A stretch of DNA of 46,891 nucleotides from NCBI GenBank assembly GCA_021107945.1, contig JAIORV010000111.1, forward strand, positions 1-46,891. Reading direction: 5' to 3'. Both the position numbers and the translations under genes were made by a program. The DNA comes from Vulcanimicrobiota bacterium (GTDB lineage Bacteria; Vulcanimicrobiota; JAJTBE01). Of this stretch, positions 31,301-36,587 are shown one piece after another. The notes below the pieces were generated by a model that saw only the letters and a list, made by a program, of their open reading frames with translations, did no database searches and was not told where the DNA came from. Positions within the stretch are counted from its first letter, which is position 1. Every line of letters begins with the position of its first letter.

Positions 31301-31735
31301 CTACTCCTTCAGTCCCGCAGCCTGGATGTTTTCGTCAAGTAAATTGCGTACATATTCGGTGATGCTAATGGAAGTTAGCAGAGAGTCCACGCAGTCCGCC
31401 ATCTTCTCATCCGTGGGATCCTCAATATAATCACCAATAAGACCCATTGTAACCCGGACAATATCCAGGGATCCTATACTCAAATCCTTTACCTCTCCTG
31501 CTTCGTCGGCGACCTTCATACTTTCCAGGTCTTTTCTGGATTCTTCAAGCTGTTTTGAAAGCTCCCTGTGATATTTGACCAGAACCTCCATTTCCATCTC
31601 ACCGGTATGTACCGCTTTTAAAGCTCCCAAGAGGGAATCGAAAGCAGGGTTGTCAGGATCCACCGGCGCGCTGACCAATGGCGTATCGCCATATCTTTCC
31701 TTGAGTTTTTCTTCTATTGTCATTTCTTCTGGCAT
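31301..31735 (-). CDS. Small helical cytoplasmic protein, unknown
   Basis: A 144-residue, acidic, mostly helical protein without signal peptide or cysteine motifs. A central helix (about 47-77, HTGEMEMEVLVKYHRELSKQ onwards) could form a coiled coil. GGGGAG lies before the ATG. It is between the hydrolase-like gene upstream and the zinc-finger gene downstream on the same strand, 152 and 98 bases away respectively. An adaptor, chaperone or immunity role for the adjacent hydrolase is possible by position only; no family recognised. Confidence 0.68.
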   Translation of the reverse strand: MPEEMTIEEKLKERYGDTPLVSAPVDPDNPAFDSLLGALKAVHTGEMEMEVLVKYHRELSKQLEESRKDLESMKVADEAGEVKDLSIGSLDIVRVTMGLIGDYIEDPTDEKMADCVDSLLTSISITEYVRNLLDENIQAAGLKE

Positions 31736-31887
31736 GAAAACTCCCCTTTTATGAAAAAATTAAGAGAAAGGAAAATGTAAAAATCATAATCCTTCTGATA
31801 CATTCAATTATATTCAATCCAACCAATCCCGGAGGTCAGGTTGGCGAAGGTTTTGATCTTGCAAAATTGAAGAACCAAAATTCTTCG

Positions 31888-32907
31888 CTACTTCTTTTCC
31901 TGGAGTTGGTAAACGACTCCCCCGGATTTGCCTCGCTCGGATATAACCTGGTTTGTTGCCCCTCCATTGGATCCGATAGTTTTCATTCCCCCGGGTCCGT
32001 TTTCCGACACCAGTTCCGTATGCCCCCTGCTGCCGCTCATCCAGACATCTCCGGGCCTGGCCTGGTTTGCCGGAACCAGAACATATCCCTGGCTTTTCAA
32101 CTGGCCTTCGAGAATTTTGACACTTGCGGAATGTGTACCTTTGAATCTCCCCGTGGCTTCAAGGCAGGCTCCCACAAAATCAGCGCAGTTATTGCCTGTG
32201 CCGCCCGCGGCTTTGAAAGTGGGCAGTTTTCCCTTGCAGGCGATGGATGCCTGTCCCCGGTATTTTCTGGCAAGGTCTACGGCATCTTGACCGGAGCCAT
32301 CGGGTTTAATAGTGCTTACCGGTGCGTTGCCTGCTGCGGCCGGTGCTGTCGAAGCCGGGGCCGCCGCGCCGCCACCGGGAGCCGCTCCACCTCCACCGCC
32401 ATAAGCGGGAGCCGCGCCACCTCCGCCACCGGCAGGAGCCACTCCTCCACCGCCGCCAGCGGGAACAGGTCCGGGCGCAGGGGTGGAAGGTGCGGCGGGA
32501 GTCTGCATAATATTGTTTCTCTCGGCGCTCAGATCCTGTAAATCCTTCATGCTTTCCTTCGCCGTTTCGTAATCTCCGCTCTTGATGGCATCTTTCAACT
32601 TCTCCCTGACTTCATCAATTTTTTTCTCGATTTCCTTGAGCTTTTCCTGCTTTTCCTTTTCTTCGGGAGTTTTGGGTTCCTTTGTTTCTTCAGACTTCTT
32701 TTCTTCTTCAAGTTCCTTTAGCCTGTCCTTTATCTCCTCCTTCGTCTCTTGTGAGAAGGCCGTGAGATCCTTGGCTTTCTTGTCCCTGGCTTTTGTATCC
32801 TTAACTTTCTTCCCTTTTCTGCCCAGGAAGCCGGGTTTGGAAGGTTTCAGACCCCCGGAAGGAGCGGTTCGCCTTAAGGAGGATCCTCTGCTTTTTCGTA
32901 TTTTCAT
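31888..32907 (-). CDS. Coiled-coil/Gly-Ala-Pro linker protein with NlpC/P60- or CHAP-like C-terminal domain
   Basis: 339 residues in four parts: a very basic N-terminus (1-45), a Lys/Glu-rich coiled coil (about 46-135) with the motif LKDAIKSGDYETAKESMKDL, a Pro/Ala/Gly linker (about 136-195), and a C-terminal domain (about 205-339). In that domain Cys241 (NNCADFVGACLE) and His296 (RPGDVWMS then RGHTELV) fit the Cys-His catalytic pattern of amidase/endopeptidase folds such as NlpC/P60 or CHAP, which cut peptidoglycan peptides. No signal peptide. The ATG at 32907, with GGGAG eight bases before it, is preferred over TTG at 32922. It shares coiled-coil motif and linker with the divergent gene starting at 33266, so the two are related modular proteins. 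A peptidoglycan target is inferred. Confidence 0.8.
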   Translation of the reverse strand: MKIRKSRGSSLRRTAPSGGLKPSKPGFLGRKGKKVKDTKARDKKAKDLTAFSQETKEEIKDRLKELEEEKKSEETKEPKTPEEKEKQEKLKEIEKKIDEVREKLKDAIKSGDYETAKESMKDLQDLSAERNNIMQTPAAPSTPAPGPVPAGGGGGVAPAGGGGGAAPAYGGGGGAAPGGGAAAPASTAPAAAGNAPVSTIKPDGSGQDAVDLARKYRGQASIACKGKLPTFKAAGGTGNNCADFVGACLEATGRFKGTHSASVKILEGQLKSQGYVLVPANQARPGDVWMSGSRGHTELVSENGPGGMKTIGSNGGATNQVISERGKSGGVVYQLQEKK

Positions 32908-32980
32908 TTTATCAACTCCCAAAATTATATTTGCTTACAAGATGTAAATTCATGGAGACACAAAAACCCCACCACCTTAT

Positions 32981-33009
32981 ATTATGAAGATTATGCGAGG
33001 TCAAGTCAA
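32981..33009 (-). promoter_or_regulatory. Sigma-70-like promoter for the minus-strand hydrolase gene
   Basis: On the minus strand a -35 box TTGACT (complement of 33004-33009) is followed after 17 bases by a -10 box CATAAT (complement of 32981-32986). Transcription would begin near 32974 and leave a leader of about 65 bases before the ATG at 32907. The -35 end is nine bases from the first TGTTAAC box. Confidence 0.6.
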
Positions 33010-33017
33010 TTTCTACA

Positions 33018-33096
33018 TGTTAACTTTTGGTAAAAAATGTTAACATTTTATTAAAGTTGTTAACATCTTTGCGTCTCTTGTTAACAAAATATTAAC
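33018..33096. promoter_or_regulatory. Phased array of TGTTAAC(A) boxes between divergent promoters
   Basis: TGTTAAC occurs at 33018-33024, 33038-33044, 33058-33064 and 33079-33085, spaced 20, 20 and 21 bases, so all four lie on the same face of the helix, two turns apart. The last three extend to the perfect palindrome TGTTAACA. A near match ATTAAC follows at 33091-33096. The array sits between the two divergent -35 boxes. It is probably a cooperative binding site for a transcription factor. The rest of the 32908-33265 gap is leader sequence and the two promoters. Confidence 0.7.
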
Positions 33097-33106
33097 AAAA
33101 ATCTAT

Positions 33107-33136
33107 TTGATAACAGACAAATGCTGGTGGTATAAT
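33107..33136 (+). promoter_or_regulatory. Sigma-70-like promoter for the plus-strand hydrolase gene
   Basis: A -35 box TTGATA (33107-33112) is separated by 18 bases from a perfect -10 box TATAAT (33131-33136). Transcription would begin near 33143, leaving a leader of about 120 bases with AAAGGAG at 33248-33254 before the ATG at 33266. The array of TGTTAAC boxes lies immediately upstream of the -35. Confidence 0.68.
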
Positions 33137-33265
33137 ATATCTTGCGGGGATCAGGCAAAAAAACTTACGCTACAATAATGTTTAAAAACCAGGGGGTTGT
33201 GAGTATATTTTTTCTATACCCCATAATTCTATCTTCGGAAAAACTTCAAAGGAGTAGGTGTTATT

Positions 33266-34435
33266 ATGAGTGGTAATATCAAGAAAATCGGCGATAAGGG
33301 GAAGAATAAAGGGTCCGCCTGGCTGAAGGCGGCAGGGGCCGGAGCGGGCAGGACATCTTTTGCGGCCAAGTCCAAAAATTCAGCGAAAACCAAAGCCCCG
33401 AAGAAAGGTGATAAATTTACCACCACCAAGGAACTAATGGAAGAATTTGCAGAAGAAAGGGCCAAGAAGGAAGAGAAGAAAAAGGAAAAGGAAGAGGCCA
33501 AGAAGGCCGAGGAAGACAAGGAAACCAGGGAAGAAAAGGAAGAGAAGCTGAAGGAAAAAGAGAAAGAACTCGAAGAAGCCAAGAAAAAGATGGAAGCGAC
33601 CCAGGACAAAATCAAGGAAGCCATGAAGAAGGGCGACTACAAGGGAGCCACACAGCTCATGAAAGAACTGGCGGGACTGAAGAATCAGGCCAAGGGACTT
33701 TCAGATGATATTGTGGAATTGAGACAGGATATGCCAGCACCAGCACCAGCGCCAGCGCCAGCGCCAGCACCAGCACCAGCACCAGCACCAGCACCAGCAC
33801 CAGCACCAGCACCAGGAGGAGAAGCGGCTCCCGGCGGTGGAGGAGTAGCCCCCACCGGCGGAGGAGGAGGAGCGGCTCCCGCTTATGGCGGTGGAGCGCC
33901 AGCGGCAGCAGCCCTGGGTGGAGCGCCTGCAGCACAGCCGGGCGCAAAACCGGCGGAAGCGACTGGTACTACAACACCCCCTGCAAACCTGAAGGGCGAT
34001 GACAAGAAAACGGCGGATTTCATCGAAAAATACCTTGCAAAGAGGGGTTCCCCCGCTGTGGGCAAGGGGGCCGGAGCGATGATGGTTCAGTCCGGGAAGA
34101 AGTATAATGTCGATCCCCTTCTCCTGCTGACAATTGCGGGCCATGAGACCCAATTCGGAAAAGCTGGAGTCGGTATGAGGAAAATGCTGGGAGTGGGCGC
34201 TTACGACAGCAATCCCAGCGGCAAGACTAAATTTGACGGACTATCAGCCCAGATCGAGGGGGGAGCCAGGACTTTCGACAATCTGAGGAAAAAAGGCGGC
34301 TCATCGGCAAGCGAAAGCCTTGACAAACAGATCCGCGCGGCGCATAAGGCCGAATGGGCCACAGGCGCCGGTTGGTCCGACGGTGTCATCAAGCTGTACC
34401 AGGAGATTTCCAGGGAAGCGAGCGCAATTGGCTAA
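33266..34435 (+). CDS. Coiled-coil/Pro-Ala linker protein with lysozyme/glucosaminidase-like C-terminal domain
   Basis: 389 residues with the plan of the divergent gene: basic N-terminus (1-50), Lys/Glu coiled coil (about 55-150) containing the matching motif IKEAMKKGDYKGATQLMKEL, a (Pro-Ala)n run then Gly/Ala linker (about 156-240), and a C-terminal domain (about 245-389). The last carries KKYNVDPLLLLTIAGHETQFGK with a likely catalytic Glu (about 295), then GVGAYDSNP and FDGLSAQIEGGARTFDN, a pattern of SLT/lysozyme-like or glucosaminidase-type peptidoglycan glycosidases. No signal peptide or membrane segment. The linker segment GGGGGAAPAYGGG is identical to that of the neighbour. A rho-independent terminator follows. 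It probably cuts glycan strands, inferred from fold pattern. Confidence 0.82.
   Translation: MSGNIKKIGDKGKNKGSAWLKAAGAGAGRTSFAAKSKNSAKTKAPKKGDKFTTTKELMEEFAEERAKKEEKKKEKEEAKKAEEDKETREEKEEKLKEKEKELEEAKKKMEATQDKIKEAMKKGDYKGATQLMKELAGLKNQAKGLSDDIVELRQDMPAPAPAPAPAPAPAPAPAPAPAPAPAPGGEAAPGGGGVAPTGGGGGAAPAYGGGAPAAAALGGAPAAQPGAKPAEATGTTTPPANLKGDDKKTADFIEKYLAKRGSPAVGKGAGAMMVQSGKKYNVDPLLLLTIAGHETQFGKAGVGMRKMLGVGAYDSNPSGKTKFDGLSAQIEGGARTFDNLRKKGGSSASESLDKQIRAAHKAEWATGAGWSDGVIKLYQEISREASAIG
33733..33815 (+). repeat. CCAGCA/CCAGCG hexanucleotide repeat inside the linker
   Basis: About fourteen tandem hexamers, mostly CCAGCA with a block of CCAGCG, encode alternating Pro-Ala residues. Such arrays expand or contract by slippage, and because the unit is six bases, length changes keep the reading frame. 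Confidence 0.85.
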
Positions 34436-34484
34436 TATGACAATGGCAGGTTTCAGTTTATAAAAATAACCACCGGTTTTTTAA

Positions 34485-34528
34485 GAGGCGGGAATGTTTC
34501 ACATTTCCCGCCTCTCGTCTTTATTTTG
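34485..34528 (+). terminator. Rho-independent terminator after the glycosidase-like gene
   Basis: GAGGCGGGAATGT and ACATTTCCCGCCTC form a long GC-rich stem with a single bulged T and loop TTC, followed by the T-rich tract TCGTCTTTATTTT. It lies about 50 bases after the stop codon and insulates the convergent glycosidase-like lipoprotein gene. Confidence 0.85.
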
Positions 34529-34631
34529 GAGATATCAATGTTTTTTCTCCGGTTATCCTCTGCGCCTCTGCGATTTCTGCCGTGAAAAACCTCTTTTTCA
34601 ACAGTATCATTTCCCGACTCCCGCTTCTCAA

Positions 34632-36587
34632 TCAGGGTGCAACCGGGAATCCGATTGCCGCTGTCGCCGCTCCTCCGTTACCGTCGCGGATAATTACTCT
34701 TAACTGGTAATTGTTGCTTTGGCTGGTGGAGGAATCAAGCGTGAATGTAATTGTATTTTTATGCTTTCCTCCATTCAGATCAGTTGTATCGCCGTTGCCT
34801 ATCAGGCTGCTTGTTATAACGGCATTGGGAGGCTCGCTGACTCCCCAGGCTTTGTATGTATTTATGCTGGGACCCTGTGTTATACCTCCCCCGGTGGGGG
34901 TTTGAATGACTCCTCCCATAAGAAACCAATCAAATGTCAGGTTGTCACTATCCGGATCGCTTGCAGTAATTGACGCTGTGAGCTGGTCTCCGGGATTGAC
35001 AACCTTGCCTGCGGATGAGAGTGTTACTTTGAAATCACAATCAATTCCCTGGGGATCGCTGTCGGAAGGTGTTTCAATTTGCGGGCAACTGTTTGAAGGT
35101 GTGGTTCCGCCATAATTCTCCGTCACCGCATCAACGCATTCCAGTCTGTCAACTCCATATTTCTGATACCAGTTCACATACATCTCGAATTTTCCGCGAT
35201 ATACAAACATATCTTTCCAGAATCCCGGGACCTGGCTGTTATGAGGAGGCATCCAGTTTAACGCCATTCCTCCAACACAGTCATATTGTGAATATGGAAC
35301 GATATAGTTATTCCAGCAATCTTTATAGTTTTGAGCGTTTGCTGTCGAGTTTAGCTCGAGGAAATATTCATATCCGTTAATTGTCTGACTGGGCATTGAA
35401 CCCGGGGAGGGGAGATCATAAGAATAATACTCTGAGACAATCCAGGGCTTGCCCCATTTTGCCATTGTCGGTCCCAGGGTGTTGAGGAATCCTCCGCCCT
35501 GGTGGGTGTTGTCAAATTTCCCATAGAATGAATTGACTCCAATCCAATCAAGATCCGGCATGCTCTGTTTATAAACATCCAATGCATGAGGGGTGGGATT
35601 CACAATAGCCGTCATTACGGGGAGACTGCTCTTTCCCTTGATATATACAGCAAATTCGTTGATTTTCTTGTTCATGTCTGCGTCGGGGTTGCCGGCGTCA
35701 ACGGCCTCATTGCCGGCACAGAATCCCAGGATATGATCGGCATTACTGTCCGCTATAATCTGGTCAAAAGCCTGCTTGCCGTCGCCAACAGGGTCTGCGA
35801 GTCCCTGGAATTTGAAGCCTACAAGAACCATAATTTTATTGCTGTCGGTAGAATGCGCACTTGCCAGAGATAGGGCGGCTTTCACATCCCTGACCTGCTC
35901 CGAAACACTTGCCCCGCCGTAAAGCCTTATTGCGTTTGCGCCGCTTGCCGGGAGATTATCCGTCAGGTATGAATAGGTAAATTCGTCCGGGTCGGAACCG
36001 CCGTAATCACCGGTAATTCCCTTCACTGTTGTGTTTGTGCCGTCCACCATGAGAAGCCACTGACTTCCGCTTTGGGCGAAATGAACGGGTCCGGTGGGAT
36101 CGCCGTCAACCTGGACGTTGGTGTCATCACCATCTGATACGGAAACGGGAATTGTGGTGCTGCCCTGTTGCGTGTTGCTTCTGGCCCCTGCACCTGTGGC
36201 GCCGGAGCTGGTATAATAATCGATAATCATGAACTTCGCATCAATCGGCACATTCTCAAGAACATGCGAATTGCTTCTTGTGAAAACATATGGTCCGAAT
36301 ATTAAGATGTTATTCTTGTCTGAAAACGAATAGTGAATGGAATCAATGTTTTGAGGTAGATCATTTTCGACATCATGAGAAACTATGACAATGCCTGTAG
36401 AGGATGTGGGAGTCTGAGTCGGTGTGGGTGATATGACACTATCGGTTGAGTTTTTGCTGCTTGTGCACCCGGGGATAATAAATGCAAGAGAGATAATGAG
36501 GATAGAAACCGCGATTAAAACTCTTGAAATTCTCCCGGAAGTTATACTTTCCTTTTGAGTTTTTAGAACCATAGAACTTCGCTTCAT
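34632..36587 (-). CDS. Secreted lipoprotein with glycosidase-like TIM-barrel and Ig-like C-terminus
   Basis: The N-terminal signal ends in a lipobox (FIIPGC, Cys41), then a Thr/Pro/Ser-rich linker (VISPTPTQTPTSS), a beta-rich domain (about 65-190), and a barrel-like domain (about 195-500). GFCAGNEAVDAG (Asn-Glu, acid/base position) and WIVSEYYSYD (Glu, nucleophile position) match clan GH-A glycosidases; the overall picture is close to GH5/GH17-like enzymes, but family is not resolved. The final 110 residues resemble a PKD/Ig-like fold. Start chosen at ATG 36587 with GAGG upstream. Likely acts on extracellular or cell-surface polysaccharide. Confidence 0.75.
   Translation of the reverse strand: MKRSSMVLKTQKESITSGRISRVLIAVSILIISLAFIIPGCTSSKNSTDSVISPTPTQTPTSSTGIVIVSHDVENDLPQNIDSIHYSFSDKNNILIFGPYVFTRSNSHVLENVPIDAKFMIIDYYTSSGATGAGARSNTQQGSTTIPVSVSDGDDTNVQVDGDPTGPVHFAQSGSQWLLMVDGTNTTVKGITGDYGGSDPDEFTYSYLTDNLPASGANAIRLYGGASVSEQVRDVKAALSLASAHSTDSNKIMVLVGFKFQGLADPVGDGKQAFDQIIADSNADHILGFCAGNEAVDAGNPDADMNKKINEFAVYIKGKSSLPVMTAIVNPTPHALDVYKQSMPDLDWIGVNSFYGKFDNTHQGGGFLNTLGPTMAKWGKPWIVSEYYSYDLPSPGSMPSQTINGYEYFLELNSTANAQNYKDCWNNYIVPYSQYDCVGGMALNWMPPHNSQVPGFWKDMFVYRGKFEMYVNWYQKYGVDRLECVDAVTENYGGTTPSNSCPQIETPSDSDPQGIDCDFKVTLSSAGKVVNPGDQLTASITASDPDSDNLTFDWFLMGGVIQTPTGGGITQGPSINTYKAWGVSEPPNAVITSSLIGNGDTTDLNGGKHKNTITFTLDSSTSQSNNYQLRVIIRDGNGGAATAAIGFPVAP

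Follow-up and report, generated by a model that had tools for sequence, protein, structure and literature searches.

The intergenic stretch at positions 32908-33265 of the window (the whole 46,891-nucleotide stretch of DNA that was analysed) separates two divergent genes and probably contains a divergent promoter with a shared TTAACA array, where tandem dimers of a WalR/VicR-like regulator of the OmpR family would bind and most likely activate both genes. According to this model, the response regulator would bind TTAACA half-sites in helical register, would sit immediately upstream of each -35 element and, by activating both genes, would lead to the production of two complementary peptidoglycan hydrolases. 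For an uncultured bacterial class, this predicts a genome-wide regulon that follows a simple sequence rule, namely TTAACA-N5-TTAACA placed 48-50 bp ahead of the -10 element, or one helical turn closer.

Box array and divergent promoters

The array of TTAACA-type half-sites spans positions 33018-33097, with a phase of ~10-11 bp. Its strong cores are TGTTAAC at 33018, 33038, 33058 and 33079, with the spacing of 20, 20 and 21 bp given in the original prediction, and TTAACA at 33092. The last three TGTTAAC boxes are those extended to TGTTAACA, and the first one reads TGTTAACT; what had been described as a fifth half-match is the perfect TTAACA at 33092, 11 bp beyond the TTAACA at 33081. As weaker half-sites occur between the strong boxes, the underlying period is ~10-11 bp and the 20-21 bp spacing corresponds to two turns. 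The earlier suspicion that such phasing is not due to chance was verified on the 343-bp stretch 32923-33265 by shuffling with dinucleotides kept (n = 5000): shuffled stretches contained at most two TGTTAAC and no phased step (0/5000 with at least three TGTTAAC), whereas the observed stretch contains four boxes and three phased steps. Among 51 stretches compared, the window array was the second-largest box cluster. No Rfam match to a structured RNA was found in the window.

Two sigma-70 promoters are predicted beside the array, and they were the best two in a promoter scan of the region 31700-34700. On the plus strand, TTGATA-18-TATAAT (33107-33136; 11/12 matches, with a TG before the -10) would serve the plus-strand gene; on the minus strand, TTGACT-17-CATAAT (32981-33009; 10/12 matches) would serve the minus-strand gene. 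Both had been proposed at the outset, but as facing each other; because transcription from the two diverges, they are back to back. The clear bases between the outer box and the -35 number 8 on the minus side and 9 on the plus side (with the 33092 box counted), instead of the nine and about eleven first given.

The half-sites form tandem pairs facing the promoters. A perfect pair, TTAACA-AAATA-TTAACA (33081-33097, plus strand), faces the plus promoter, with 50 bp from the pair start (33081) to the start of TATAAT (33131). On the minus strand, the pair TTTACC-AAAAG-TTAACA (33018-33034), with TTAACA at 33023 and an overlapping TTACCA at 33033, faces the minus promoter, with 48 bp from the pair start (33034) to the start of CATAAT (32986). 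Two more minus-strand pairs, both TTAATA-N5-TTAACA, lie at 33038-33054 (half-sites at 33054 and 33043) and 33079-33095 (33095 and 33084). TGTTAACA reads identically on either strand, so that a single array provides direct repeats correctly oriented for both promoters. The earlier proposal is well supported as far as a regulator-binding array for both hydrolase promoters is concerned, since these offsets are strongly preferred across the genome; as to the binder, we infer a single one.

Flanking genes

The minus-strand gene (31888-32907) starts at ATG 32907, preceded by GGGAG, which was preferred here to the TTG at 32922 given by the ORF tool. It encodes a leaderless protein (no signal peptide) with a basic N-terminus, a coiled coil, a Gly/Ala/Pro linker and a C-terminal NlpC/P60/CHAP-like amidase domain. 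Pfam returned Amidase_5 slightly short of the cut-off (E = 6e-4), and the top Foldseek matches of a moderate model were the NlpC/P60 domains of MAP1204 (3i86), RipB and RipA (E = 0.007-0.012). The product of the plus-strand gene (33266-34435), also leaderless, has the same layout: a coiled coil, a Pro-Ala linker and a C-terminal domain that is glucosaminidase-lysozyme-like by fold. No Pfam match was found for this C-terminal domain, but its AlphaFold model is good (pLDDT 82), and its best Foldseek matches were two peptidoglycan hydrolases, LytB and autolysin E (E = 0.007-0.02 at probability 1.00). The initial label of two hydrolases is reasonable, by fold only, and the two proteins would complement each other as a glycan-strand cutter and a peptide/amidase cutter of peptidoglycan.

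Genome-wide distribution of the tandem repeat

The 5.56 Mb genome was examined by pattern searches, with the reversed pattern as control, and on fetched stretches, with genes called as crude longest ORFs. The genome-wide count of TGTTAACA, put forward earlier as a check, gave a mixed outcome: the direct repeat was found at promoters, and the single word was common (168 vs 121 reversed), a 1.4-fold ratio such that the palindromic word by itself tells little. TTAACA-N4-6-TTAACA occurred 71 times vs 10 for the reversed control, almost always with N5, and exact TTAACA-N5-TTAACA 65 times vs 5 (13-fold). On these counts, the functional unit is the direct repeat TTAACA-N5-TTAACA and not the palindrome. 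In the fetched loci, TTAACA-TTAACA distances peaked at 11, 20-22, 30-33 and 40-42 bp, the 11-bp peak being imposed by the choice of loci and the later peaks not directly so. Taken from stretches other than the fetched pair loci and free of exact tandem pairs, an 800 kb sample serves as background for lone boxes only, not as an unbiased genome sample. An identical TGTTAACA-N13-TGTTAACA pair was observed in opposite orientation at L002:1501-1529 and G000:C100:11293-11321, and is apparently part of a dispersed repeat rather than a promoter.

Tandem pairs were intergenic in 67 of 71 cases, vs 137 of 493 for lone TTAACA, and in 59 of 71 cases, vs 135 of 493, a gene start was no more than 250 bp away. 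In one-sided cases, 32/44 pairs were oriented toward the gene (p = 0.002). With the pair's first base as origin, 22 hexamers resembling a -10 were found on the same strand at 48-50 bp, vs 2.1 in shuffles; as the window offsets fall within this preferred range, both window promoters obey the genome-wide rule. One turn closer, exact TATAAT was found at 37-38 bp from the pair start (n = 4), with near-matches to the -10 at 36-38 bp showing no clear excess (5, vs 2.2 in shuffles). Once near neighbours were merged, tandem pairs occupied ~57 separate places. The array is not private to this gene pair and would represent one switch of a large regulon.

Predicted targets

Based on sequence or fold only, the peptidoglycan hydrolases among the predicted direct targets were the window pair, an SLT + Amidase_5 fusion that joins a lytic transglycosylase to the amidase, is a paralogue of the window amidase and stands behind the same boxes (L088), and NlpC/P60 proteins (L125, L095). 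Other genes behind pairs encoded two clostripain-type peptidases, an M14 carboxypeptidase, a subtilase, two 5'-nucleotidases, a PLD protein, a GH130 protein, an MGH1-like glycosidase, a tyrosine phosphatase, an adenosine deaminase, and two flagellar-like proteins (one FlgE/F/G-like, one weakly FliK-like). Boxes in G017, a genome of another family, preceded genes of the same kinds (clostripain, 5'-nucleotidases, PLD). A hydrophobic N-terminus was present in 7/59 targets vs 89/299 neighbours. The regulon is likely of the WalR type, with an extension to a large number of leaderless hydrolases, and the target list would unite otherwise scattered hypothetical proteins as one coherent group of such hydrolases, as yet unstudied. 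No description of such a WalR-type direct-repeat regulon for the phylum Eremiobacterota was found in the literature searched, which lay mostly outside subscription journals.

Annexins are unusual in bacteria; an annexin gene was observed in G017 (L184:3545-5350; four matched stretches, E = 7e-102), with a box array 127 bp ahead. An array also precedes a Met/Gly-rich protein (L105:2705-4006) with a weak, sub-threshold DUF1521 match (E = 2e-4). Two proteins of 313 aa (L084:4412-5353 and L116:4091-5032) are nearly identical, lack a Pfam match and begin with an N-terminus like a signal peptide; each has TTAACA-N5-TTAACA closely followed by TATAAT.

The N-terminal motif D-x-V-x-[ILV]-[SG] was moderately enriched, in 8/59 targets vs 13/299 controls (p = 0.012), several of these controls adjoining targets, apparently in the same operons. 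As the enrichment is only moderate, the case for the regulon does not rest on this motif, and the two window proteins have no clear copy of it. Similar motifs following a polar N-terminus were noticed in L099, L120, L126, L096, L112, L174, L036, L047 and others, the carriers being leaderless proteins that are array-preceded or homologous to such proteins; we take this arrangement to be reminiscent of FlgM. Frames corresponding to the C-terminal half of FlhA only were also observed (G000:C24:19918-20958, C165:828-1829, C44:34987-35565 and C76:21998-23014), and full-length genes for FlhA, the flagellar/type III export gate, were found at C107 and C83. A flagellar/type III-like system might export the leaderless targets, but this is no more than a lead. 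More broadly, a WalR/MtrA-like two-component system might be a UBP9/Xenobia-wide master switch of many leaderless hydrolases with polar N-termini and, in some, the D-x-V-x-[ILV]-[SG] motif (wall hydrolases, clostripain, subtilase, zinc carboxypeptidase, nucleotidases, phospholipase D and tyrosine phosphatase, with annexin in a relative), exported by such an apparatus and acting on other cells, a tentative and rather unlikely extension.

Distribution in related genomes

Judging by named relatives of the glucosaminidase domain, the genome belongs to Candidatus Eremiobacterota and probably to the class UBP9/Xenobia. In relatives, all belonging to families other than that of the window genome, TTAACA-N5-TTAACA exceeded its control in many families (61 vs 3, 38 vs 2, 26 vs 1, 26 vs 2 and 31 vs 3), and the looser KTWACA-N5-KTWACA added G026 (110 vs 8), G016, G028 and G012. 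In families f9, f14 and f16, pattern counts against the control showed the tandem repeat to be essentially absent. For glucosaminidase homologues of other families, 19 upstream regions together scored 187 for the tandem repeat, vs 162.7 in shuffles (sd = 2.7), some of them carrying GTAACA half-site variants. Several of these 19 regions individually had no tandem repeat, and the one from G017 had no convincing pair.

Candidate regulator and alternative readings of the array

Repeats of this kind are bound by OmpR-family proteins, and seven Trans_reg_C matches were found in the genome. The best candidate appears to be the WalR-like response regulator C89 (G000:C89:5367-6059), together with its adjoining PAS kinase (L134:1890-3065; PAS, HisKA, HATPase_c). 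The DNA-binding domain of C89 was closest to those of WalR/VicR, RegX3, MtrA and YycF, and the full-length protein to MtrA among full-length PDB chains. Almost all genomes of the group that carries the boxes contained an ortholog with 68-85% identity, vs at most 56% in f9, f14 and f16, and the recognition-helix stretch was almost invariant among the orthologs matched. No clear array was found in the promoter of the C89 gene itself, which is thus left without an autoregulatory link, and this is a tension for the assignment. Another tension is family f13, where the regulator is retained and its recognition-helix stretch is identical, yet there is little or no box enrichment.

As the genome contains seven such domains and related regulators share box types, another OmpR-family regulator (e.g. 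C33, C63 or C94), or several of them, could bind the array instead of C89, although this is unlikely. Class-wide ortholog profiling, which covered C89 and C33, gave close matches to C33 only in G012 and G017 (64-67%); elsewhere in box-rich genomes its best match was the C89 ortholog, and C33 was rejected.

The boxes might also belong to a phosphate-starvation regulon of the Bacillus PhoP or PhoB type, since Bacillus PhoP boxes are TTAACA-like 11-bp direct repeats, almost identical to those of WalR in sequence and spacing, and since the leaderless 5'-nucleotidases and PLD-type phospholipases among the targets could scavenge phosphate. This is quite improbable, as peptidases, wall hydrolases, glycosidases and adenosine deaminase, whose genes are not phosphate genes, make up most of the targets, no phosphate transporter occurred among the targets examined, and the only PhoU-domain genes (C7:38-40 kb) are on a contig without tandem pairs. 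Moreover, the DNA-binding domain of C89 scored 90-93 bits with WalR/VicR vs 63-64 bits with PhoB, the comparison with Bacillus PhoP being incomplete because no DNA-binding-domain structure of that protein was among those compared.

Perfect 8-bp palindromes make up three of the four boxes and were the unit chosen in the original prediction; an unrelated regulator that recognises palindromes could bind each of them singly, the spacing being incidental. The genome-wide ratios of the lone word and the direct repeat given above make this very improbable, as do the many pairs elsewhere that are TTAACA-N5-TTAACA without palindromy and oriented toward the gene. In the 800 kb sample, which lacks exact tandem pairs, inverted arrangements peaked at no particular spacing, and palindrome or inverted-repeat binding was rejected on this basis. 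The regular ~20 bp repeats and the TGTTAACA pair (L002, C100) within a sequence present twice could suggest replication iterons or a dispersed repeat, but this is hardly credible, as the 6-8 bp cores alone recur, with differing spacers and flanks, and the arrays precede unrelated genes in register with -10 elements.

Comparison with known systems

The boxes of Bacillus PhoP and enterobacterial PhoB are 11-bp direct repeats bound by tandem dimers beside the promoter. The array described here shares with them the 11-bp direct repeats near a promoter, but differs in that no phosphate genes occurred among the targets examined and in that TGTCAT repeats showed no 11-bp peak in the 800 kb sample, which is free of tandem pairs.

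MtrAB of Actinomycetota offers a second parallel, as MtrA governs cell division and wall genes and the MtrA boxes of Corynebacterium glutamicum are n-A/G-T-a-A-C-a repeats (PMC6265350). Control of cell-wall genes would be common to both systems, and MtrA boxes resemble the GTAACA variants of some relatives, whereas the core in the window's genome is TTAACA and the target set differs.

The WalR/VicR consensus is TGTWAH-N5-TGTWAH (PMC4168254), which reads DTWACA-N5-DTWACA when reverse-complemented and covers TTAACA-N5-TTAACA, so that the pair at 33081-33097 conforms to it; a predicted YycF site on record is TTAACACTACCTTAACA (PMC5405149). Cell-wall hydrolases are under WalR control (PMC7299342), and in Staphylococcus aureus WalR sites upstream of the -35 accompany activation (PMC10746227). 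As the window boxes lie upstream of both -35 elements, like these activation sites, activation would be expected here rather than repression. If the regulator assignment is true, WalR/MtrA control of wall hydrolases would reach past the Gram-positive phyla. The system resembles WalRK/VicRK/YycFG of Bacillota in box sequence, 11-bp direct-repeat geometry, the OmpR-family DNA-binding domain, the adjacent PAS histidine kinase and the presence of peptidoglycan hydrolases among the (here predicted) targets. It differs in occurring in another phylum, in the multi-box array at the window and in its targets, which are mostly leaderless multi-domain proteins, whereas those of WalRK/VicRK/YycFG are secreted autolysins.
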